Shown in pieces: positions 25,529 through 41,557 of a stretch of DNA of 42,684 nucleotides. The number at the start of each line of letters is the position of its first letter. Position 1 is the stretch's first letter. The DNA comes from Pirellulales bacterium (GTDB lineage Bacteria > Planctomycetota > Planctomycetia > Pirellulales > Thermoguttaceae), in NCBI GenBank assembly GCA_016933425.1, contig JAFGAY010000382.1, positions 1 to 42,684 of the forward strand. The letters are read 5' to 3'. A program made the translations under genes and the position numbers. Below the pieces are notes generated by a model. The model did not search any database and was not told the DNA's origin. It was given only the letters and a program-made list of their open reading frames with translations.

Positions 25529-28500
25529 CTATGGGTTCGTGTATTGGAATAATTCTTGGTCCACGACGTCGAGCTTGATCTCGTCGGAGTTGGCCTTCAG
25601 TTCGGGAGCGTACATGGCCGAGCCGCGGGTCGGCAGGGCGCTGAAGCGTCCGGGAATTTCGGCCCGCATCCGGTAGCTCACCGAATGGCGACCCCGGGCC
25701 AGCGCGCGGACGAGAAACACGACGCGATTGTCGCGGAACTCGACGTAGGCGCCCAAGTCGTTGCCGTTGTAGCCGCTGCGGACCTCGACCGGCTCGAATC
25801 CGGCCGGCTTCATGTCCTCGAAAATGAGATACTCATAGTCGTTCTTGCTTTCCAGTTCGAGTTCGATCTCGACCAGATCGCCGCTGACGACTTCGTCACC
25901 CGTCGCCAGCGGGACTCGCTCGTATTTTTCGATCTTCTGGTCGACGACCTGGCCGCGCGAGCCGGCCGCCTTGATCGTGGCGTCGACCGGTTTGAGCCGG
26001 TAATACTTGCGCTGGACCTTGATTTCCAGGCCGGCGGCCTTGATAAAATCCTCGAGCGTGAAATTGGTCTGATAGGCGTTGTAGTAGAGCGGCCCGCGCC
26101 CCTTGCGGCGCAGCTCGATCTCGTGGGAACCGCTGGCGAGTTGGTCGCCTTCCAACACGAGTTTGTTGTCGAAATCGAACAGGTTTTGCGGCGTGATTTC
26201 GACGGCCTTTTGCAGTTTTCCGTCGAAGTAGACCTCGACGGTCATCTCGGGCCGGTCCTCGCCGCTGGCCTTGAGAAAATCGGCCATGGCCTCGATGCAA
26301 ATGGCCGTATCCCGGGTCGAATTCCAGTAGGTCGCGTGTTTGCGGTTGTTCAACAGGTATTTGACCAGCCGCGGGGCAACCTCGCCCTTGGGATCCGTGC
26401 GGCACAAGAGCTTCAGGTAGTAAGCCTGGGCCTCGTACTCGCTGCCGTACCAGCACCACCAGTAGCCGCCCGGCAGGTTGAGCCAGGCCGTCTGATTTTC
26501 GTCGTCCTGCTGGAGATACTGGCCGAGGTTGCGGAGGATCATGGCGAGTTTGTCCTTCTCGCCTTGTTTTTCCAGCGCCAGGCCGTACATGGCCATGCTG
26601 TAGACGGCCAGGCGAGTGCGATCGCGATAGAGGTAGTCGCGCATGGCGTCGTTTTTCACGCCGGCGTCGACCAGCACCATGTAGACGAAAGCGTCGAGAT
26701 TGTCGGCCGTGCGTTTCCAGGGCCGGTTCTTCTTGTGCTGCGGATCCTCGTCGGCGTTTTTCAGCTTAACAACCTCATTATCCTGATAGCGCGTGAGCCA
26801 GGCCACGCCGCGTTCGAGGACACCGGGCACGAGCGCGACCTCGTTCTCCTTGGCGATTTGCAGTCCGTGGACGACGTAGGCGGTCGTGTGCGAGTAGGAT
26901 CGTTCACCCCAGCCGCTGAACCATCCCCAGCCGCCGTCGCCGCACTGCATTTGGGTGAGCGCGTTGACGCCGTCGCGGACCATGCGCCGGACCTCGGCCG
27001 AATCGAAGACGGGATTGCGTATCCCCTCTCCCTGAGGGAGAGGGCCAGGGTGAGGGTGTGTTCCCCACTGCTTCGCCCGCTCGGCATCGTCGCCGATTTC
27101 CTGCGCGTTGAGATTGGTCCGTTTCTTGCGAACCTCGTCCAAGTCGATGCCTTTGCTTAGGAGAATTCGCTGGACGATCACGGTCGGCAGGAACCGGCTC
27201 AAGGTCTGCTCGGTGCAGCCGTAGGGATACTCGACCAGATACGGCAGCGCGTCGACCATGGCCCCGGCCAGCGTGGGCGAGTAGCGAATTTCCAACCGCG
27301 ACTGCGCCGGCCGGCGGTCTTCCGGAACCTGGATCGTGAATTTGCCCGAGTCGGCCCCCGGCCGTATCGAACCCGAGTAGCTCTCGGTTTTCAACATGCC
27401 GTGGACATAGCAGGGCAGGCGCATTTCCATGGCGTCCGACTCTTCGTCGGTCAGCGCTTTCATGCGGACCACCGCTTCGCCTTCCTCCTTGACGTCGACC
27501 CACCAGTTGATGCGTTTCTCGCCGCCCGGCGCGATGCGGACCATGCGAATCAGTTCGCTGGTGGTGCGAAGCTGGGGATGGCCGACCTCGATCGAGATTT
27601 GAACCTCTTTTTCCTTCTCCAGATAGTTATGGACGTTGGCCGAGAGCGTGACTCGATCGCCCTGCACGAAGAATCGCGGGGTTTGCATGCGCAGGATAAG
27701 GTCCTTGCGCGTCACAACGTCGGTCTGGCCTTGGCCGACCCGGGCGCCGGCGCCCATGGCCCAGGCCTTGATGCGCCAAGTGGTCAGGTTTTCGGGCATG
27801 TCGAGTTCGACCTCGGCCGTGCCGTCGCTGTCGGTCGAGAGTTCGGCGACCCAAAGGGCCGTGTCGGCGAACTTGGTGCGCACGGTCGGCTCGACGAGTT
27901 GGGCCTCGCCGTTGGCGGGAGCTGCCTCGGCCAAGTCAAGGATACAGAAATCCAGATCTTCGCCTCCGTCGGCCGGCGCCGCGGACTTCATGGCGGCTTT
28001 GGGCATCATCATTCCGCCGCCCATCATTCCGCCGCCTAGAGCGATGCCGCGACGGGAAACCATTTGCCCGTCATCCTCGGAGGATTGGACTTTATCCGTC
28101 CCCAGTTCCTCGATCTGCGTAGCGCCGAACACGCCCAGATTGTTCATGGCCGTGGCGTTCTTTTCGATCAGGTTGCCCGAGGTCCGGCCCAGGTTCGAGC
28201 TGGTCTGGGGGTGATGGTGGCGGACCCATTTCCAGAAGAATTCCTTGATGTCGGGCACGTTCGATCCGCCCGAGATGTACTCGACCGACTTGTCGTAGAT
28301 CGACAGCACGGTCGAGCCGACGAACGGCTTGCCCAGCAGATCGGTCAGTCGGACCTTGACCTTGGCTTTTTCGCCCGGTCGATATGCATCGGCCGACGGT
28401 TCGACGGCGACGTTGAGGATTCGTTTCTCGGGCGGGACGACGATTTGGCGCGACTCGGTATACACGCGGCCGTCGGCTACGGTGACCGCTTCGACGAAGA

Positions 28501-31500
28501 AATTGGGCATGTCGTCCGGCTCGACGCCGATGGGCACGATCGTGCTCTTGCCTTCCAGCCGGAGCATCTTGGGCGGCAGGTAAATTCCGTTGGACGGACG
28601 CAGGAACAGCAGCACGGTCGAGCCCGGCCGGTCGGTGTTGACCTGCAACAGGACTTTCTCGCCCGGCTGATACTGTTTTTTATCCGCGACGAGTTCGAGT
28701 TGGTTGAAGCGGAACTCGCGGCCGTCGAATCCCCGGCCGATGACGGTGAAGAGATAGCCGCCTTCGATCGCGTGGCCCTCGGCGTCGGTCACCTGGTAGC
28801 TGAGACGGTACTGGCCCGGCTCCGAGGCGGAAAACTTCATGGCGGCGCGGCCGTAGTCGTCGGTCGGTAGGGTCCATTTTTGGACCGGGTCTTCGACCGG
28901 TTTACCATCCTTGTAGGTGATTTTCCGCAGCGTGAGTTGGCCCTGGCCTTGAACGCCGCGGCCGGCGAGCGTTCGGGCGTCGAAGTTGGCCTGGACCATG
29001 TCGCCGACGCGGTAATAGCCTCGGTCGATCCAGGCACACACCGAAAACGGCCGCCGCGCAACCAGCACCGAACCGGCGCCGACGATCGTTCGCCGCGACT
29101 GGTCGGTCACTTCGGCCGTGATCGAGTAGCGATGGTCCTGGTCGGGGTGGACGAGCTTGGCCAGCTCGGTGTCGATCGTGACTTTCACCTCGCCATTGGG
29201 GCCGATGTCGACGGTTTGCTCGGCGACGACCTCGGGCGGCATGTGCGGCCCGCGCCACCACGGCGGCACCGGGCAGCGCCAACCCCATCTATACCAACCG
29301 GGATACCACGAATACTCGCCGCCGAACCACCAATAGCCCGGCCCATAGAGCCAGTCCCACGGCATGACCGGATACCAGCGCCCCTCGTGGTTGGTTCGGG
29401 TGATTTTGTATTTCACCTTGGCCTGGGTCACAGGCGATCCGAAGTAGTATTTCGCGCGGATGACCGCCTCGATCTTTTCGCCGAGCATGACCGGCTTGTC
29501 GGGAGCGTCGACGGCGACCTCGAACTCGGGCTTTTTGTATTCCTCGACGCGGAAATTGCCGCTGCCGAGGTGGTCGCCGTTGGGCCGTTTGACGTTCATG
29601 CGCCAGACGCCCAGCGGCGCGTCCTCGGCCAGCTCCAACGAGCCGGCAATGCCGCCATACTCGTCGGCCGTGGTCGATTTCTCGACGACTTTCGCATTTT
29701 TCGCGTCGCGGATTTCGACCAGGAACGCATCGCCGGCAAATGGCGAGCGATCCGGCGCGTCGTAGCGGGTGTTGGCGATCCAGAATTTGTAGTGCACCTT
29801 TTGCTGGGGACGATAGACGGGCCGGTCCGTGATGGCGTAGGCTTTCGTGGCCTCGTACTTTTGCCGGTGATACTTGCCGTACCAGACGCCCTCGAAGCCG
29901 AGATAGGCCAGCCGGCCCTCGGGAGTTCGCGCGATGACGAGCCATTGGTATTGGTTTTTCTGGTCGCGGGTCTCGGGCGTGACCTGGCCTTCGGCGTTCG
30001 TGGTTTCGGCGAATTGAAGGACGTCGAGCGTAGCCGGTCGGCCTTGGTTCCACACCTGGCGATAGCCGAAAAACTCGACGTTGGCCCGGTCGATCGGCCG
30101 GCCCGTCACCGCGTCGGCGACATAGTACAGGTTTGCTCCGTTGAGCCGCTTTTGGACAATGGCCGTGTCGGCGACCCATAGAATGATGTAACTCGTGTTT
30201 CCACCGGTCATTTTGGCTTTGACCAGATAGGCGCCCGGTTGGCTGAGCGGAGTCGTCACCGTCACGCGGTTGTCGAAATGGTCGGGTCGCGGGTCGAGCT
30301 TCATTTGCCAGTTGGCGACCAGGCGGCCGACATACTTTCGCTGGTTCTCGGTGACCAATCGCCAGCCGAGGTTGTCGAGGGTCAATTTTTGCCAATCGAG
30401 CTGCTTGGGACGCGATTTTAGATAGGCCTTGACGTCGGCCAGCAGGTCTTCGATTTTGATTTCGTGGGCCGTGAAGACGACCTGGTTTCCGTTGCGGAAG
30501 CGATATTCGACCGTGGCCCCCTGCCCTGCCGGCTGATCGCCGACCGGCTCGAATCGGCCCCAGTTGCCGACGATCTGGTCGAGTCGCGCTTGCCAATTTT
30601 TCTCAGCATCGTGATGGTTCATCTCGCGGTGGAGGGCGACGATCTGGCGGCAATATTCGGCCGCCTTGGGATACTGGCGGCGGTTCTCGAAAATGCCGAC
30701 CAGACGGTCCAACGCCACCGCGGCCGTGCTCCAGGACGAATCGCGCTGCGAGGCGATCTGCTGATAGATCTTGATGAAGTTGCATTCGTCGGGCAGTTTG
30801 AACCGGCGGATTCCCGTGGCCAGACGAGCGATCGTCTCGTCTTCGCCAAGAGTTGCCAGTGCGTAGGTGCCGCTTTGGTTTTCCTTCGAATCGTCGACGT
30901 CGTTTCGCCCGAACCGCCACCCAAACTCGGCCATGGTTTGGACGCCGAACTGGTTATGGAGAAAGTCGGCGAATTGAAGCTGCAATTGCGAATTTCTGCT
31001 CGGGGCGTACTTGCCCGCTTCGGCCAGACACCACCGCCACCGCTGGCCGTCGTTGGCCGAGGCGTCGAACGCGGGTGGCACGGCGTAATAGATAGGGTTG
31101 CCCGCCTCGTCGACCGGCGCGCCCTGAACGCCGCCGTCGTAGCCGCTCCAGCCGGGTTCGTAGTCGGGCAAAACATCGAGATCGGTCAGGTATTGCAGCC
31201 GCCAGGCTTCCTGCCAGCCGCGATCGCTCAGCAGCACGGTGGCGAAATATTGGAAGAACGAGGAGACCTCGCCCAGCACACCTTGGTTCGACGGCCGTCC
31301 GGCGACCAACTCGCCGGCGCCGGCTTGCTGGGCCAACGGCATGGCCTGATGCATGAGTTGCAACGCGCGGACGCGGTCGCGGGCCTCGGCGTTGACTATC
31401 CGACCGTCGCCCCGATGGGAGCCCCGTTGAAATTCACCGGCGATGATGTAGCCAAAGTGCATCCGATCCATGTAGGTTCGGGCCGCGGTCTGGAGCAATC

Positions 31501-31816
31501 GCCAGTTGTGGGAGTGAACCTTGACGACCGCCTCGCGCAAAGCGTCGATTTCGTTGGTCCGATTGAGCTGAATGAGACATTCGACGGCGCAAAGCAGGTC
31601 GGTGGATACCTGGAGGGGATCGGTTTGCGGGTCGAGAGCCAGGCCGCGGAATTGGTCGAATGCGTCTTTGAAATTGCCGTCGTCCAGGTCCGCCTTGGCC
31701 TGTTGGCGTACTTGGGTCGCGTCGGGAGCGACGCCGGCGGCCGGGTTCGACGTCGCGGCCAGTGCCGTGGCCAGTGCCCAGGGGATGAACGTCGAAAGAA
31801 TCCAATGGTTTTTCAC
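25529..31816 (-). CDS. Large bacterial alpha-2-macroglobulin with thioester
   Basis: 2095 residues. The GTG at 31816 has AGGAG 8 bases upstream and opens a signal peptide (MKNHWILSTFIPWALATALA). After a ~600-residue N-terminal region come macroglobulin beta domains (DRPVYRPQQKVHYKFWIAN near 658, WIDRGYYRVGDMVQANFDA), the A2M-family line LWVAELSTDSDGTAEVELDM near 1310, and the thioester motif YPYGCTEQTLSRF near 1530. The thioester domain continues with GDGGWGWFSGWGERSYSHTT. Such proteins trap proteases that attack the cell. Residues ~1255-1290 are Met/Gly-rich (GGGMMGGGMMMP) and may be the bait. At ~1584-1595 the insert HPHPGPLPQGEG comes from a dispersed DNA repeat. No PbpC gene is next to it, unlike in enterobacteria. 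Confidence 0.93.
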   Translation of the reverse strand: MKNHWILSTFIPWALATALAATSNPAAGVAPDATQVRQQAKADLDDGNFKDAFDQFRGLALDPQTDPLQVSTDLLCAVECLIQLNRTNEIDALREAVVKVHSHNWRLLQTAARTYMDRMHFGYIIAGEFQRGSHRGDGRIVNAEARDRVRALQLMHQAMPLAQQAGAGELVAGRPSNQGVLGEVSSFFQYFATVLLSDRGWQEAWRLQYLTDLDVLPDYEPGWSGYDGGVQGAPVDEAGNPIYYAVPPAFDASANDGQRWRWCLAEAGKYAPSRNSQLQLQFADFLHNQFGVQTMAEFGWRFGRNDVDDSKENQSGTYALATLGEDETIARLATGIRRFKLPDECNFIKIYQQIASQRDSSWSTAAVALDRLVGIFENRRQYPKAAEYCRQIVALHREMNHHDAEKNWQARLDQIVGNWGRFEPVGDQPAGQGATVEYRFRNGNQVVFTAHEIKIEDLLADVKAYLKSRPKQLDWQKLTLDNLGWRLVTENQRKYVGRLVANWQMKLDPRPDHFDNRVTVTTPLSQPGAYLVKAKMTGGNTSYIILWVADTAIVQKRLNGANLYYVADAVTGRPIDRANVEFFGYRQVWNQGRPATLDVLQFAETTNAEGQVTPETRDQKNQYQWLVIARTPEGRLAYLGFEGVWYGKYHRQKYEATKAYAITDRPVYRPQQKVHYKFWIANTRYDAPDRSPFAGDAFLVEIRDAKNAKVVEKSTTADEYGGIAGSLELAEDAPLGVWRMNVKRPNGDHLGSGNFRVEEYKKPEFEVAVDAPDKPVMLGEKIEAVIRAKYYFGSPVTQAKVKYKITRTNHEGRWYPVMPWDWLYGPGYWWFGGEYSWYPGWYRWGWRCPVPPWWRGPHMPPEVVAEQTVDIGPNGEVKVTIDTELAKLVHPDQDHRYSITAEVTDQSRRTIVGAGSVLVARRPFSVCAWIDRGYYRVGDMVQANFDARTLAGRGVQGQGQLTLRKITYKDGKPVEDPVQKWTLPTDDYGRAAMKFSASEPGQYRLSYQVTDAEGHAIEGGYLFTVIGRGFDGREFRFNQLELVADKKQYQPGEKVLLQVNTDRPGSTVLLFLRPSNGIYLPPKMLRLEGKSTIVPIGVEPDDMPNFFVEAVTVADGRVYTESRQIVVPPEKRILNVAVEPSADAYRPGEKAKVKVRLTDLLGKPFVGSTVLSIYDKSVEYISGGSNVPDIKEFFWKWVRHHHPQTSSNLGRTSGNLIEKNATAMNNLGVFGATQIEELGTDKVQSSEDDGQMVSRRGIALGGGMMGGGMMMPKAAMKSAAPADGGEDLDFCILDLAEAAPANGEAQLVEPTVRTKFADTALWVAELSTDSDGTAEVELDMPENLTTWRIKAWAMGAGARVGQGQTDVVTRKDLILRMQTPRFFVQGDRVTLSANVHNYLEKEKEVQISIEVGHPQLRTTSELIRMVRIAPGGEKRINWWVDVKEEGEAVVRMKALTDEESDAMEMRLPCYVHGMLKTESYSGSIRPGADSGKFTIQVPEDRRPAQSRLEIRYSPTLAGAMVDALPYLVEYPYGCTEQTLSRFLPTVIVQRILLSKGIDLDEVRKKRTNLNAQEIGDDAERAKQWGTHPHPGPLPQGEGIRNPVFDSAEVRRMVRDGVNALTQMQCGDGGWGWFSGWGERSYSHTTAYVVHGLQIAKENEVALVPGVLERGVAWLTRYQDNEVVKLKNADEDPQHKKNRPWKRTADNLDAFVYMVLVDAGVKNDAMRDYLYRDRTRLAVYSMAMYGLALEKQGEKDKLAMILRNLGQYLQQDDENQTAWLNLPGGYWWCWYGSEYEAQAYYLKLLCRTDPKGEVAPRLVKYLLNNRKHATYWNSTRDTAICIEAMADFLKASGEDRPEMTVEVYFDGKLQKAVEITPQNLFDFDNKLVLEGDQLASGSHEIELRRKGRGPLYYNAYQTNFTLEDFIKAAGLEIKVQRKYYRLKPVDATIKAAGSRGQVVDQKIEKYERVPLATGDEVVSGDLVEIELELESKNDYEYLIFEDMKPAGFEPVEVRSGYNGNDLGAYVEFRDNRVVFLVRALARGRHSVSYRMRAEIPGRFSALPTRGSAMYAPELKANSDEIKLDVVDQELFQYTNP
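27021..27060 (-). repeat. Dispersed CCCTCACCCTGGCCCTCTCCC repeat, inside the macroglobulin gene
   Basis: The minus strand carries ACACCCTCACCCTGGCCCTC then TCCCTCAGGGAGAGGGGAT, with the short palindrome CCCTCTCCCT-C-AGGGAGAGGG. It is read in frame as HPHPGPLPQGEG within the thioester domain. A second, decayed copy lies at 32019-32050. Confidence 0.8.
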
Positions 31817-33894: not shown

Positions 33895-36564
33895 CTATGG
33901 TCCGGTCGCGCTCGGCGTTTGGGCGGGTTTCGGCTCGCGTGAAATTTCGCGCAGAATCGTGTAGAGGACTTCGTTGCGGCGGCGCGTCGGTTGATCTGGC
34001 TCGGCCATCCAACTGCCGCCCAGGGACTCGTCATTCAGAACCGAGGCGAAACCGACTGCCATGACGGTTCCTTTGCCGAAGCGGACTCCGGCGGCGACCG
34101 TCGCCGAGGAGGGCGAGGTCGACGCGCGATCAGGCTGGCTGCTCGAGGTCGTGGACACTACCTCGGCGATCGGCGTTCCGCCGGCTACGCGCCACGCCCG
34201 ATCGACGTCGACGCCCATCGACTGCCCGAACATCCGCAGCTCGCCGGCCACGGGGGCCCAGGTTTCCATCGAAAGCCCAAAGGGCCGGAGCACCCCATTG
34301 GCCGTCGAATGGGGATTGGTTGGCGCGTCGAGCACCAGCAGACGGCCACCCTCGGCCACGTAACGGATGAGCCGGTCGCGGTAGGCCTCGCTCGCCGGTC
34401 GGGTCGGGCAGATCACGACGAGCACGTCGCCCGACAACGCCGCGTCGCCTTTGGCCCGAGTCGTGTAACCGATGGTTCCCCGGGCCGCGTCGCCTGGTCT
34501 GGCGGGTCGATGGACTCGCGGGATCCACTGCTCGAGCAATCCGTAGCCGGCCCCGCCACCCTGGGTATAAGCGCCTTTGGACAGCGGCACTTCCGACAGG
34601 CCGCGATCGATCACATAGAGAAAAGGTTCCTGGCCGTCCTTGGGTTGGATGGGCGGCATTGTCCGGGCGGCCACCGCGCCGACGACGGCGGCGCACGCCA
34701 CGGCGCCGAACAGTCCGGCCGAGAGAACCACGAGCCAGCCGCCCGGCGCGCGGCGGCCGAGCCACATGCCCGCCGCCAGCAGCGCGAGTCCCGCCAGTCC
34801 GACCGGCACGACCACGGTAAGCCACGTCCATCGGTTGTCCAGGGGGCTGCCGTGATTGAGCCAGGAAAGCATATTGAGCATCAGTTCGGCCTTGCCCGGC
34901 TGAAAGATGCAGAAGTTCGAAAAGATGGTTGAATCGGTGAAGGCCAACACCCGGCCTTTGCCGTATCGGGCCGCCCAAAGCTGGACGAAAGGACCCGTGC
35001 GCATCTCCGCGCGATATTCGGCCGGCGGGTGGTAATTCTCGCTATTGTACAGGGCTTGAAGGCTCCAGAGCCCCCGGTTTTCGATGGCCGATCGGCCCCA
35101 ACTCAGGCCCGGGTCGATCGAGCACGAGACGGCGAAATCCATTCGGCCGACGTGCATCACGGCCGGATGGGGAACGGCCGCCGCGCGAAACGGCTGTTCA
35201 TAGGGCGTGCCGACGCGAAACAGCAGATCGTTGCGAAACGTGAACCCGAGCCGCCGGGCCACGTCGTTCAAAAAGGTGCTCGATTTGAAGACGTTCGTGT
35301 GGTCGCCGATCATGAGCAGTCCGCCGCCGTGCTCGACGAACCGCACGATGGCGTCGACCTCGTCGGTCGACATCCGCGAGGTGGGCGTTTTGAGCACCAG
35401 CACGTTGCACCCGGCCAACGATTCGGCGCTGATGGGCGTGTTGCGGTCGATCCGCGAGGTGTCGAAGAAATGCGAGGCGTAGTCGTAAATCACGCGGTAG
35501 GTATAGCTGGCCTTTTCGCCAAACGTGTTTTCGTCGTAAGCGGCGTCGGTCGGTTCCCAGAGCGAGCACCGCTCGGCCACGCGAATGCGGCCCTTGCCGG
35601 CCGTGCCGATCGGGTCCCACGCCCAGGGAAACGTCAGCAAAGCGGCGCCCAGCGCAACCAGGCAGCCGGCAACCAGCCGGCGCCGCGGGCCCGGCACGAC
35701 AGGAGGTCCGGCGTCGGGCGTCTCTTGATTTGCCTCTCTCGCCGGCCGCGTCGAGACGAACCACCACGCCAAGAGAACCGGACCGACCAGCAACAGCGCC
35801 GGCAGCCACCAGGCGAAACATTGGTTCATCACGGTCGGCGGCGCCGACGGGTCGGCCAGGGCCGAACGCTGGGCATAAAAACCCAGCACCAGGGCCAGCC
35901 GAATCGGCAGCCACGCGGCCACGACCAGCACGAGCGTGAACAAAGCTCTCATCCACGTCCCCGCGCGCCGCGGCCGGCCGGCCGTCGCCAAGGCCAGCAT
36001 GACCGCCGCGCCGACCACCAACGCGACGACCGACGGGGGCACGAGCAGGTCCCAGGTCGCCCCGAGCGGATCGACGGCGGTTGGACCTCGCACAGCCAAC
36101 GTCGAGCCGGACGTGCCCGCCTCGGCGCCAAAAAGCCGCGCCACGCCGCCGACCATCGTGGCGAGCGGGGCTGGCACGTCGTGCGATCGGGCCGTGAACA
36201 CGGCATAAAGATACAGGGCCACCCCTTGCGCCAGGAGCACGCTGCCCGACGCCACCGCCGCCGGGGCAAACCGCCGTGGCCACGCACGCGGGATCGGCGC
36301 GACCGCCAAGACCAGCCCGGCCGCGAGCAACAGCACGCTGACTTTTTCGGGCCACGGCATGAACCAGACGGCGGGCAACAGCAGCACCAGCCCGATCGTC
36401 CCGTCGCGCCGCTCGGGAAGTCGAAATTCAACGCCCGCGAGCAGGGCGACCCCGGCGGCCGCCAGGACAACCCCGAGCCACGCAATGGCCGGCGCGTAAT
36501 AGCCCAGCCCGGGCAACCACGAGACGGCCAGCAGTCCGACGGCCAACCACATTCGTAGGGTCAT
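33895..36564 (-). CDS. Large membrane protein: exosortase-like helices plus two GATase/DUF4350-like domains (paralogue B)
   Basis: 889 residues. Residues 1-~300 are eight or more membrane helices. Near 150-230 a layout like exosortases is seen (VARLFGAEAGTSGSTLAVRG, then PLGATWDLLVPPSVV, then WLPIRLALVLGFYAQR), but the catalytic Cys place holds no Cys. Domain 1 (~330-570) has CNVLVLKTPTS near 389, IVRFVEHGGGLLMIGDHT, and GKGRVLAFTDSTIFSNF. Two helices follow (~581-636). Domain 2 (~640-889) has DVLVVICPTRP near 713, LIRYVAEGGRLLVLDAPT and GKGTVMAVGFASVLNDES. These strands fit GATase1-like/DUF4350 or GldG-type folds. The start overlaps the stop of the upstream gene (ATGA). The two proteins share this order of parts, so they are probably an old duplication. 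Function unknown. Confidence 0.7.
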   Translation of the reverse strand: MTLRMWLAVGLLAVSWLPGLGYYAPAIAWLGVVLAAAGVALLAGVEFRLPERRDGTIGLVLLLPAVWFMPWPEKVSVLLLAAGLVLAVAPIPRAWPRRFAPAAVASGSVLLAQGVALYLYAVFTARSHDVPAPLATMVGGVARLFGAEAGTSGSTLAVRGPTAVDPLGATWDLLVPPSVVALVVGAAVMLALATAGRPRRAGTWMRALFTLVLVVAAWLPIRLALVLGFYAQRSALADPSAPPTVMNQCFAWWLPALLLVGPVLLAWWFVSTRPAREANQETPDAGPPVVPGPRRRLVAGCLVALGAALLTFPWAWDPIGTAGKGRIRVAERCSLWEPTDAAYDENTFGEKASYTYRVIYDYASHFFDTSRIDRNTPISAESLAGCNVLVLKTPTSRMSTDEVDAIVRFVEHGGGLLMIGDHTNVFKSSTFLNDVARRLGFTFRNDLLFRVGTPYEQPFRAAAVPHPAVMHVGRMDFAVSCSIDPGLSWGRSAIENRGLWSLQALYNSENYHPPAEYRAEMRTGPFVQLWAARYGKGRVLAFTDSTIFSNFCIFQPGKAELMLNMLSWLNHGSPLDNRWTWLTVVVPVGLAGLALLAAGMWLGRRAPGGWLVVLSAGLFGAVACAAVVGAVAARTMPPIQPKDGQEPFLYVIDRGLSEVPLSKGAYTQGGGAGYGLLEQWIPRVHRPARPGDAARGTIGYTTRAKGDAALSGDVLVVICPTRPASEAYRDRLIRYVAEGGRLLVLDAPTNPHSTANGVLRPFGLSMETWAPVAGELRMFGQSMGVDVDRAWRVAGGTPIAEVVSTTSSSQPDRASTSPSSATVAAGVRFGKGTVMAVGFASVLNDESLGGSWMAEPDQPTRRRNEVLYTILREISREPKPAQTPSATGP

Positions 36565-39401
36565 CGCGGCACCTCCTTGCCGACGCGCGACGTCTCTGGG
36601 GAAGCCCGACGAGTTGCATCAGGCGGAATCCACTCACGCTGGCCTTTGATCCACGACAAGAGCCACCGCCAGAAGTGGGCGTTGTCCGGGGCGCTGGCGA
36701 CGATGCGATTGTCGAAATACCCGTGATTGAAATTCAAGGCGAAGCGGCTGTCGCCGATCAGCACCACGCTTCCCTTGTCGAGAACGCGATGGATGACCAC
36801 CGGTTGCTGATTGAAACCCCAGACGAGTTTCCAGGAATGAATGTCCTTGCAGTCGATCGGCCAGGCCTGGAAAAACCAGACGCTTCCCGGCGTCTTGTCG
36901 TCTCCGAAGATCGTGTTGAACTGACCAAAGGCTTCGGGAAACTGGCCCATCGGCTCTGCCTCGGCCTGGTTGGAGCCGGTCGGCGAGGGCGAGGGCTGCA
37001 GCTCGAACTCGAATTCGCCCAACAGCCCGCGGGCCGCGGCGGCCTCGGTCGCGCCGACCATGAGGATTGCGTGGCCGCCCTTCTCGACAAACTCGCGGAT
37101 CTGGCGAATCTCGCCGGGCGAAAACGGCTGCGCCGGGCCCATCACGACCAAAAGCGAGGCATTTTTGAGTTGCTCGGGATTCCAGCGGTCGAGCTTCAGG
37201 GGCAGGTATCCATTGCGCGCCAGGGTGAGCAAAAATCCATCCATCCCGTCGTTGGCCCAGGGCCGATCGCTGCCGACTTCGAAGTGCGACGCGTCGACAT
37301 AAGCGATCGGGCGGCCGAGAACGGTCGGCGAATTCTGCGTCGGCGCCGCAGGAACGGGACCATTTGCCCGGGCCTGGCACGTCGCGCCGACAAGGACGGC
37401 GGCCAGGGTGAGGCAGACGGCGGTCGCGCGGACCGGGCTCGGGCGCCAAACGATCAGAGCAAACGCGCCGAGGTAGCCCAGCAGGGCGAGCACTTGTCGC
37501 CACATCGATTGTGGATTGCTGGGCCGGTTGGCGAGATAAGCCAGCAGGCGACCGGTAAAACCGTAACCATCGGCCATGCCCAGGTTGGTCAAGTGCCAGT
37601 CGTCGGCCACCGCGACCACGGCGCCGCGACCCACGAGGCGCTCGGCCGCGAGGGTCACGTCGCCCCATTGGCCCGCGGCGTCGGGCAACGCATTGCCGCC
37701 CAGGCCGGTGTTTCCCGGCTCGCTCAGGCCCCAGCGACCGATGAGGATGGGTCGACTGGGCCAGCCGGCGTCGATCGTGCATCCCCATTGGAGCGTTTGC
37801 CCCAGCGTGCGGAGCGACGTGCCCAACACGGCCGGATGGGTCGAGCCCGACAACGCGCCGATCCACGATTCGGTCGACGGCAGCGCCGTGTCGTCGCGGA
37901 ATGCCAGACCGGCGAAATCGAGCAACTCGTTGATTGGCCGGATGTTGCCGGCAAGCAAGGCCGCATCGCCGGGCTCGTCGGCCGGGTTCGAGTGAATTTC
38001 CTGCGCGATGGTCGGACCGGTCACCACCAACAACGAACCGCCGGCGCGAACGTAGTCTTCGATCCGCCGGCGTTGATCCTTCGGCCACGGCTTGAAGGGG
38101 TAGATGATCATGAGGACGTCGGCCCGCTTCAAATCCTCGTCCGCGAGCGCGTCGGACACGATCCACTGGCCGCCCAGGTTTGCAACCAAGGACGGCAGCA
38201 GTCCGTAGGTTCTCGCGCGATCGGGCTCGAGGACGCCGTGCGCGGGCGGGGTCCAGTCGACGTTGCCGCCGCCGTAAGCCACAACCGTTTTGCCCGACAG
38301 GTCGCCGCGTCCCGGCGGCCAGGCGGCCATGAAACCCGCCAGCACGGCCGCCGCGACGGCCGCCGCGAAAAGGCCCCGGGCCAGACGGCGCGCGGCGACG
38401 TTTTCATCGGTTGGCGAGGGATGCGGCTCGGTCGAACCCGAGGATAATTCGCCGGAGGCCGGCGCGGGCGAGACGCCCGTGGCGCCCGACCTGGGCTCGA
38501 CGGATTCAGTCGGCGGGGCTTCGAGCGGCGACCACCGGAGCATGGCAGCGGCGATGATGGTCTGGAGCACGGCCGCCGCCAACGGCATGGCCCAGGGGAT
38601 CCAGCCGCGAAGTTCGGCCAGGACGTTCCAGCCCGTCGGCCGGTAGTCGCCCGGATCGAGCGAAGCGGGCATCGGCGGCTCGGGCAGCGCGGCGGCCAGT
38701 TGGGTGGCATGGGACAGACCGACCAGGTAGATCGCCTGGACAATGAAAATCGCCACGGCCGCCGCGACGGCCCGACCGGTGCGGGGCGGCGGCGTGGACC
38801 GAAGCCAGCCGATATAGAAAACGGCCATCAAAAACAGCAAGTCGACTCCGCCGAGCGAACCGCCGACCGAGGGCGAATCGCCGCCGGCCAGTCCGCCGAG
38901 CCATCCCAGGGCATGGCCAATGGCGTTGTCGATCGACCAGGCGGTAGGCACCGTATGGCACGCGGCCCGAAATACGGCCAGCGAACCGGCCGCGGCCGCA
39001 ACGATCATCAGGACTTGGCGCTCTCGACCACCTGCGCCGAAGACCAGCGAAGCCAGGATAGCGGCCGTGACCAAACCGTCGACTGTCGGCAGCCCGTCGC
39101 CCAGAAGACTAAACGCGGCGCCGACGGCAGCCACAACCAGCACGACGATCCATCGGCGCCACGACAGCCGAAGCGCGACAACCACGGCGATCAACAACAG
39201 GCCGACGACGGCGTGGCGCAGCGGGGTGACTAAAAAACCAGTCGAACCGGCCGCGACCCAAACCGCCAGTATTCCACAGACAGCCGCGACAACCACCGGC
39301 CAGGCCATGCCCAACGATGCGGCCTTGCCGGATGATTGGCGATTAGGCTTCTTGCCCGGTTTGACATTTGGCGGATCGGGTTGATTACGGGTGCTGGACA
39401 T
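36561..39401 (-). CDS. Large membrane protein: helical domain plus two GATase/DUF4350-like domains (paralogue A)
   Basis: 946 residues, first gene of the pair. A basic, Pro/Asn-rich start (~1-30) is followed by about eight helices to ~345, including ALGWLGGLAGGDSPSVGG, GGVDLLFLMAVFYIGWL and IVQAIYLVGLSHATQ, which line up in order with the exosortase-like stretch of paralogue B. Domain 1 (~350-630) has VLMIIYPFKPWPKDQ near 427, IEDYVRAGGSLLVVTGPT and GRGAVVAVADDWHLTNLG. Two hydrophobic segments follow (~636-675). Domain 2 (~690-946) has LLVVMGPAQPFSPGE near 750, IREFVEKGGHAILMVGAT and DKGSVVLIGDSRFALNFN. No catalytic Cys-His-Glu set is seen, so these are probably binding domains. No ABC transporter is near, unlike for GldG. 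Confidence 0.7.
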   Translation of the reverse strand: MSSTRNQPDPPNVKPGKKPNRQSSGKAASLGMAWPVVVAAVCGILAVWVAAGSTGFLVTPLRHAVVGLLLIAVVVALRLSWRRWIVVLVVAAVGAAFSLLGDGLPTVDGLVTAAILASLVFGAGGRERQVLMIVAAAAGSLAVFRAACHTVPTAWSIDNAIGHALGWLGGLAGGDSPSVGGSLGGVDLLFLMAVFYIGWLRSTPPPRTGRAVAAAVAIFIVQAIYLVGLSHATQLAAALPEPPMPASLDPGDYRPTGWNVLAELRGWIPWAMPLAAAVLQTIIAAAMLRWSPLEAPPTESVEPRSGATGVSPAPASGELSSGSTEPHPSPTDENVAARRLARGLFAAAVAAAVLAGFMAAWPPGRGDLSGKTVVAYGGGNVDWTPPAHGVLEPDRARTYGLLPSLVANLGGQWIVSDALADEDLKRADVLMIIYPFKPWPKDQRRRIEDYVRAGGSLLVVTGPTIAQEIHSNPADEPGDAALLAGNIRPINELLDFAGLAFRDDTALPSTESWIGALSGSTHPAVLGTSLRTLGQTLQWGCTIDAGWPSRPILIGRWGLSEPGNTGLGGNALPDAAGQWGDVTLAAERLVGRGAVVAVADDWHLTNLGMADGYGFTGRLLAYLANRPSNPQSMWRQVLALLGYLGAFALIVWRPSPVRATAVCLTLAAVLVGATCQARANGPVPAAPTQNSPTVLGRPIAYVDASHFEVGSDRPWANDGMDGFLLTLARNGYLPLKLDRWNPEQLKNASLLVVMGPAQPFSPGEIRQIREFVEKGGHAILMVGATEAAAARGLLGEFEFELQPSPSPTGSNQAEAEPMGQFPEAFGQFNTIFGDDKTPGSVWFFQAWPIDCKDIHSWKLVWGFNQQPVVIHRVLDKGSVVLIGDSRFALNFNHGYFDNRIVASAPDNAHFWRWLLSWIKGQREWIPPDATRRASPETSRVGKEVPR

Positions 39402-39688: not shown

Positions 39689-41077
<1,389 letters not shown>

Positions 41078-41557
41078 GGAATCACCTGGGTAGCCGTTCA
41101 CCCCAAACAAAGTGGGCGATTTGGGGGATATGTGGAAAGCTGTCGGCAAATATCTACGTTACGGCTCAGGGTTCGTCAACACATCATAGGCGGTTTCGGG
41201 GGTGTACCCAGGCGAGACCGGCCGATTGGTTCCGATCATGCCTTTTTACCGAGTTTCAAGGGATGGGGACCATTTTGATCAGCCAGGCGGTCTTGCTTTG
41301 GTGTCCAGAAAAGTTTCCAAAGAAAACATCCCCTCTTCCGAGTATACAAAGAGGGGTTTTCCCCACGTTTAGGGACATGTTTTCTGGATATGCCACTGTA
41401 TCAGGGGGTGGATTCCCTAGATTCGGGGTATTTCGCAGGCTCTAGGAGTGTACTACTATTTAGCGAGATGACACGTTGCGCCTCGAAAGTTGAGGTTGTT
41501 GTCGCTCGTCAAGCCGGATCGCCAAACAGCATACCCATCCAGGTCGGGAGAAGTCTT
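41078..41557. other. Shared regulatory region between two divergent response regulators
   Basis: 480 bp without coding signal. It should hold the promoters of both regulators. The centre (41304-41389) is strongly palindromic, with nested inverted repeats described separately. The ribosome binding site of the plus-strand gene (GGGAG, 41546-41550) is at the right end. Confidence 0.55.
41304..41389. promoter_or_regulatory. Nested inverted repeats, possible operator or terminator
   Basis: TCCAGAAAA (41304-41312) pairs with TTTTCTGGA (41381-41389); AGAAAACAT (41321-41329) pairs with ATGTTTTCT (41377-41385); and CCCCTCTT (41330-41337) pairs with AAGAGGGG (41349-41356), followed by TTTT. The inner hairpin with its T-run could end transcription on either strand, since a T-rich run follows in both directions; the outer pairs could be regulator half-sites. 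Confidence 0.45.

Follow-up and report, generated by a model that had tools for sequence, protein, structure and literature searches.

What is the function of two large, adjacent membrane proteins encoded in a planctomycete genome, and on which substrate would they act? The question is raised by a gene pair, here called PA and PB, in a stretch of DNA from a Pirellulales bacterium (assembly GCA_016933425.1, contig JAFGAY010000382.1), which was analysed at its full length of 42,684 nucleotides and is referred to as the window. PA, gene 1 of the pair, encodes a membrane protein of 946 amino acids (36561..39401, minus strand; Pfam DUF4350, E=5.6e-18), and PB, gene 2, one of 889 amino acids (33895..36564, minus strand; DUF4350, E=1.5e-14). 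Both open reading frames (ORFs) were verified at these coordinates and have coding-type codon usage according to a codon score, and the ATGA overlap described in an initial annotation of this DNA was confirmed, the stop of PA and the start of PB having four bases in common. The answer we favour, to which we give a probability of about 0.55, is that PA and PB are a membrane complex which matures envelope proteins built of Thr-Cys-Pro (TCP) repeats, by attaching glycans to them or by anchoring them. Secreted TCP-repeat proteins are adjacent to the pair or co-occur with it, an association which is very likely to be genuine; that PA and PB act directly on these proteins is probable, and that the chemistry involves glycans is a tentative proposal, which may well turn out to be wrong.

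PB was present in 23 of the 37 genomes of the window's family covered by a search of relatives (60 genomes), and a scan of genome contigs added 80 further loci from Planctomycetota (Pirellulales, Phycisphaerae and Sedimentisphaerales), Verrucomicrobiota and Lentisphaerae, a few of them from metagenome-assembled genomes (MAGs) labelled as other phyla; the ORFs of all loci are our own gene calls, made with a codon-score ORF caller. More distant relatives of the pair occur in other planctomycete families. With the window included, PA accompanies PB in 76 of the 81 loci, in the order PA to PB, on one strand and very often with the four-base overlap. Since this order, often together with ATGA, is kept in nearly all two-gene loci, the earlier suggestion that the products likely form a complex is supported on the ground of gene order. 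The pair was also seen in MAGs named Nealsonbacteria, Spirochaetales and Nitrospira (L095, L137, L140, L146); the two loci of the Nealsonbacteria bin are placed among planctomycete rows of the PB tree, and therefore a wrong name or a mixed bin is likely.

The TCP-repeat proteins occur beside PA most often in a heptad form. A long array of T-x-C-P-x-x-x heptads was found near the pair in 27 of the 80 relatives, nearly always directly upstream of PA on the same strand. The arrays reach 97 copies, and the proteins up to 120 Cys; their N-terminal parts, where present, have DUF7901/GEVED or other domains, and the repeat proteins have apparent signal peptides, as judged by inspection. MAG contig ends conceal many regions upstream of PA, and the heptad genes were counted over the informative rows of a PB tree with 87 rows in total. 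Outside the window's clade, with the deep outgroup set aside, a heptad gene is present in 25 of 27 informative rows; a count by hand gave 27/29, adding a variant array (L140) and an adjacent divergent gene (G162), and of the two loci with no adjacent heptad, G105 encodes heptad proteins at other places in the genome. No adjacent heptad occurs in the 32 informative rows of the window's clade, which comprises 42 rows at a support of 100, and the TxCP pattern was not found in the window genome. In a phylum sample of 294 genomes, heptads were detected in 5 of the 13 genomes strongly positive for PB versus 1 of 281 others (p=4e-7), a count which discards G251 (a frame stop) and G313 (a DNA satellite). 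Heptad proteins also occur in Phycisphaerae and Verrucomicrobiota, and a literature search for the repeat sequences returned nothing relevant. Many of them (L100, L113, L142, L114-L117, L120, L127 and others) end, after the array, in a tail of the form CPA[I/V][E/D][V/A]xCPT[I/V].

Within one subclade of the window's clade, seven loci have a secreted protein made of hexads, (TT[C/S]APx)n, upstream of PA, directly so in six of them and about 2.4 kb away in L093. Some of these proteins have mostly Ser for Cys, so that the residues kept throughout are Thr and Pro; those of L108 and L110 consist mostly of TTSAPV repeats, like animal mucin repeats. The hexad TTCAP pattern was present in 0 of the 60 genomes of the search in the window's family and its relatives. 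In the window's family, the repeat is a pentad, (TCxPx)n, which co-occurs with PB: among its 37 genomes, 21 have both, 2 PB only, 3 the pentad only and 11 neither (Fisher p=2.6e-5, a figure that ignores ancestry), and the pattern was seen in 0/13 order-level outgroups. Moreover, a pentad or Cys-rich gene abuts PB in L089, L091 and L102, and lies at <=2 kb in L138 and L162. The window genome itself encodes three TCP-repeat proteins. The first, of 196 aa, contains 48 Cys and passes the Pfam cut-off for high-sulfur keratin, a match which is a resemblance of composition; the second is likewise a pentad protein. The third, a YTV protein (672 aa; L256:1785-3803, on G000:C180), has an inserted block of TCAPA pentads and joins the known YTV-domain Cys-rich wall proteins of planctomycetes (PF07639) to the pentad family, whereas the heptad, hexad and most pentad proteins are without a YTV domain.

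The architecture of the pair points to what the complex may do. AlphaFold2 models, calculated with orthologue alignments as input, had a predicted local distance difference test score (pLDDT) of 84.7 and a predicted template modelling score (pTM) of 0.85 for PB, and of 77.8 and 0.79 for PA. One topology is common to both, in which about 9-10 hydrophobic helices at the N-terminus are followed by a soluble domain, a transmembrane (TM) pair and a second soluble domain; the shared architecture described initially was correct in this respect, and its count of about eight helices was too low. In PA, the soluble domains (aa 365-630, 37512..38309, and aa 695-925, 36627..37319; all features of the pair are on the minus strand) were delimited from Pfam, profile comparison, the AlphaFold2 model and Foldseek, and the internal TM pair (aa 631-682, 37356..37511) from the model. 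In PB, domain 1, or PB-S1 (aa 320-575, 34840..35607), was delimited from the model, Foldseek and conservation, the TM pair (aa 576-640, 34645..34839) from the model, and domain 2 (aa 645-880, 33925..34632) from profile comparison and the model.

The four soluble domains are homologous, as had been proposed from their recurring sequence lines, and by profile PB-S1 and PA-S1, which come first in their proteins, are the closest two: profile-profile E-values were 2e-21 for PB-S1/PA-S1, 1e-13 for PA-S1/PA-S2, 3e-12 for PB-S2/PA-S2 and 2e-8 for PB-S1/PB-S2. The two glycines of the FVxxGGxLL line (PB G413-G414 and G739-G740; PA G454-G455 and G775-G776) are near-invariant in every copy across 87 PB and 83 PA orthologues. 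DUF4350, ABC_transp_aux and IFT52_GIFT were matched in both proteins, DUF4350 over two stretches in each; PF14258 (DUF4350) scored 66.3 and 55.2 bits against a cut-off of 30.4, and PF09822 and PF23355 were above their cut-offs too. Foldseek returned IFT52-GIFT, OST48 and GATase1/GH42-like folds, with a target-normalised TM-score (TMt) of up to 0.71 for IFT52, and zero matches to viral proteins at E<=0.001. All four domains belong in this way, by curated profile and by fold, to the GATase1-like DUF4350/GIFT family, and the difference from the known members lies in the tandem pair itself, whose combination of N-terminal polytopic domain, GIFT domain, TM pair and GIFT domain is spanned by no family model. 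Conservation within the pair is by far the highest in PB-S1, where 56 columns are conserved at >=90%; its conserved residues include E331, W336, K392, E402, H422, T423, D446, H466, D544, S545, T546 and S549, and the near-invariant polar H/T/D/S/T set resembles a ligand or active site.

GIFT domains have been proposed to bind sugars, and OST48/Wbp1, a subunit of oligosaccharyltransferase, has one (PMC7226087). PA and PB resemble this subunit in the position of a GIFT fold beside TM helices, and in the Foldseek match, and differ from it in that there are two paralogous proteins, each of which has two GIFT domains, and in that no Stt3/PglB-like partner was seen. No recurrent glycosyltransferase neighbour of the pair was noticed, the genome itself not having been searched for Stt3/PglB/AglB-type GT-C enzymes. 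In the mechanism that we propose, PA and PB would assemble in the inner membrane into a heteromeric complex that has four presumably glycan-binding GIFT domains on the periplasmic side, dedicated to the maturation of secreted TCP tandem-repeat proteins, of which (TxCPxxx)n would be the ancestral form, (TT[C/S]APx)n that of one subclade and (TCxPx)n that of the window's family. The repeat protein would be exported via its own signal peptide and recognised by the complex at the outer face of the inner membrane; a finishing step, most likely the delivery or attachment of glycan to the Thr-rich repeats, or else anchoring to the envelope, would then give a Cys/Pro/Thr-rich, disulfide-stabilised surface layer. 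Such a finishing complex is favoured because GIFT domains are proposed sugar binders, PB-S1 is active-site-like, and Thr-rich, Pro-rich repeats are typical O-glycan carriers. The proposed surface layer would agree with the envelopes of planctomycetes, described as protein with much proline and cysteine and as stabilised by disulfides (PMC3035269). The literature searched contained no description of machinery dedicated to the assembly of Cys-rich envelope proteins. The pair is a concrete candidate for such machinery, since it stays with Cys/Thr/Pro-repeat secreted proteins in three phyla as the period changes from 7 to 6 to 5, and it offers testable substrates, genomes and residues (H422, D544-S545-T546, R222 and W171). 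The novelty concerns the complete system, since the soluble domains come from a known family. The GIFT domain, common to cilium transport, eukaryotic N-glycosylation and bacterial gliding, would gain one more function.

Several observations weigh against this proposal. In the window, no TCP-repeat gene is adjacent to the pair, and the link there consists of relatives and co-occurrence. Three PB-negative genomes of the family have pentads and two PB-positive ones are without a strict pentad, one of which (G016) has an A/T-C-x-P Cys-rich gene adjoining PB. Independent pairs on the rpoB tree all go in the same direction and are too few for significance, and every genomic match is a MAG. Furthermore, in the deep outgroup the pair is associated with RHS proteins instead of TCP ones: upstream of PA stands a gene for an RHS-repeat protein in 4 loci and for a CarboxypepD_reg-domain protein in 2. 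Finally, neither a glycosyltransferase motif nor a catalytic site was identified in PA or PB, and GIFT domains also occur as plain scaffolds. A bolder version of the maturation proposal, which we regard as rather unlikely, would place PA and PB at the centre of an as yet undescribed system for protein finishing in the Planctomycetes-Verrucomicrobia-Chlamydiae (PVC) group. This system, possibly a complex for the transfer of O-glycosyl or other covalent groups and derived from an exosortase-like fold and GIFT domains, would decorate or anchor mucin- and keratin-like TCP-repeat proteins and in this way build the planctomycete envelope of protein rich in proline and cysteine.

The strongest of the alternatives, unlikely as we judge it, retains the substrate and dispenses with the glycan, so that PA and PB would tether the TCP-repeat (or RHS) protein, translocate it or anchor it to the envelope, with GIFT domains acting as protein-binding scaffolds. 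Sorting or export of this kind draws on the same gene adjacency; the recurrent heptad tail is a possible recognition signal, and the RHS proteins of the outgroup are surface proteins as well, two of which end in a hydrophobic stretch and a basic tail. Nevertheless, pentad and hexad proteins are without the heptad tail, and the near-invariant residue set of PB-S1 suits a ligand or active site better than a scaffold.

It is also conceivable, and in our judgement improbable, that the pair is a general envelope module for sensing or quality control, its TCP link in the window's family reflecting shared ancestry only. The loss of most of the adjacency in the window's clade would agree with this, as would the underpowered test of independent pairs and the sigma-54 response regulator or activator found nearby in 11 loci; yet the adjacency extends across three phyla with differing repeat periods at the same position, and within the window's clade a pentad gene abuts PB in some genomes.

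The N-terminal membrane domains raise a different possibility, put forward in the initial annotation, that PA and PB are exosortase-like proteins without the catalytic Cys, serving as a non-catalytic partner in PEP-CTERM sorting. In PB, this domain (aa 1-315, 35620..36564; AlphaFold2, conservation and hhalign) is at most weakly exosortase-like. Against reversed and segment-permuted controls (150 permutations), its hhalign score with exosortases was 30.7 versus a permuted null of 19.3+-3.5, reached by 0/150 permutations locally and 5/150 globally, and it modestly beats that null. In the global alignment, whose register is approximate, W171 (84/87 orthologues) comes close to the position of the exosortase Cys and R222 (87/87) close to that of the Arg, the site of the His being occupied by N, D, Q or H; the Cys/Arg/His triad is in this way incomplete in PB. 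A beta-hairpin (149-168) is predicted just ahead of the helix with W171. The likeness to exosortases and archaeosortases (PF09721) consists of the predicted polytopic architecture, this hairpin before a functional helix, the similarly placed invariant Arg and a possible link to surface proteins; the differences are the Trp at the Cys site, the unconserved His site, the lack of a family match and the large soluble domains, which exosortases do not have. An exosortase-like fold of PB is possible, judging by the similar topology of the model and the profile above the permutation null; no solved exosortase structure was found by sequence.

The domain of PA (aa 30-360, 38322..39314; AlphaFold2 helices and conservation) is of no known family and scored more weakly against the exosortase profile (2/150 local, 20/150 global, the latter at noise). 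Its near-invariant residues are G180, G185, D187, L189, Y225, L226, P269-W270 and P273, with a Gly-x-Asp motif in the triad region, in an approximate register. The claim that the helical parts of the two proteins align was borne out for the predicted topology and not for the sequence, the profile alignment of the two N-domains remaining within the permutation null (53/150 local, 29/150 global). When 48 PB and 32 PA N-domains were scanned, no NCBIfam or Pfam family emerged for either one, PF09721 and the TIGR exosortase models being absent from the matches at E<=5 (0/80), and an exosortase hidden Markov model of our own gave marginal scores (best 10.6 bits). With respect to sorting, family-model scans confirmed the two PEP-CTERM proteins of the window and its lack of a canonical exosortase; the same genome has one on contig C387, next to a chain-length-determinant-like gene. 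No exosortase was found near the pair in the 81 loci, and its presence was not correlated with PB in the phylum sample (4/8 PB-positive versus 48/119 genomes), so that a partnership in PEP-CTERM sorting is highly improbable; a search of the literature on inactive exosortases gave nothing relevant.

Equally remote is the suggestion that PA and PB serve, in the manner of GldG, as auxiliary subunits of an ABC-2 transporter, with the genes for its ATPase and permease at another place: GldG, an ABC auxiliary of gliding and the type IX secretion system (T9SS), shares with them a GIFT-type soluble domain in a membrane-anchored protein, and ABC_transp_aux is above its cut-off in both, but the GldG equivalog model scored 13.9 and 11.2 bits, far below its cut-off of 389.85, the N-domains matched no ABC-2 permease family, no GldA/GldF-type partner accompanies the pair, no transporter operon was found in any of the 81 loci, and an ABC-ATPase-like neighbour occurred in only 2 of them, both on the opposite strand. 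The idea of a GldG-like pair lacking its ATPase, also raised initially, holds for the soluble domains only, and the pair is far from being always part of an ABC-2 operon matching GldG. Membership of the exosortases and of GldG fails in both cases because of the missing model matches or scores and the absence of partner genes near the pair.

Among the other neighbours, a PALP gene of cysteine-synthase type lies downstream of PB on the same strand in 8 loci (L085, L086, L094, L099, L104, L138, L147 and L162), which take in both other genomes of the window's genus, and counts in favour of the link to Cys-repeat proteins; in some loci a hemerythrin-domain gene stands between PB and PALP. A small Hpt-domain gene is found downstream of PB, and near it, in L102, L104 and L138 and beside a pentad gene in the window genome (L254:2543-2878), a placement which suggests that the cluster was once longer. 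In the deep outgroup, the giant RHS-repeat genes upstream of PA in L204, L205, L207 and L209 overlap or nearly touch PA in some cases. In the window, the pair is flanked upstream by the sigma-54 response regulator (39689-41101), an activator-type regulator also near or adjacent to the pair in 10 relatives, and downstream by a PEP-CTERM aspartyl-protease-like protein. Also downstream, a bacterial alpha-2-macroglobulin of 2095 aa is encoded at 25529-31816.

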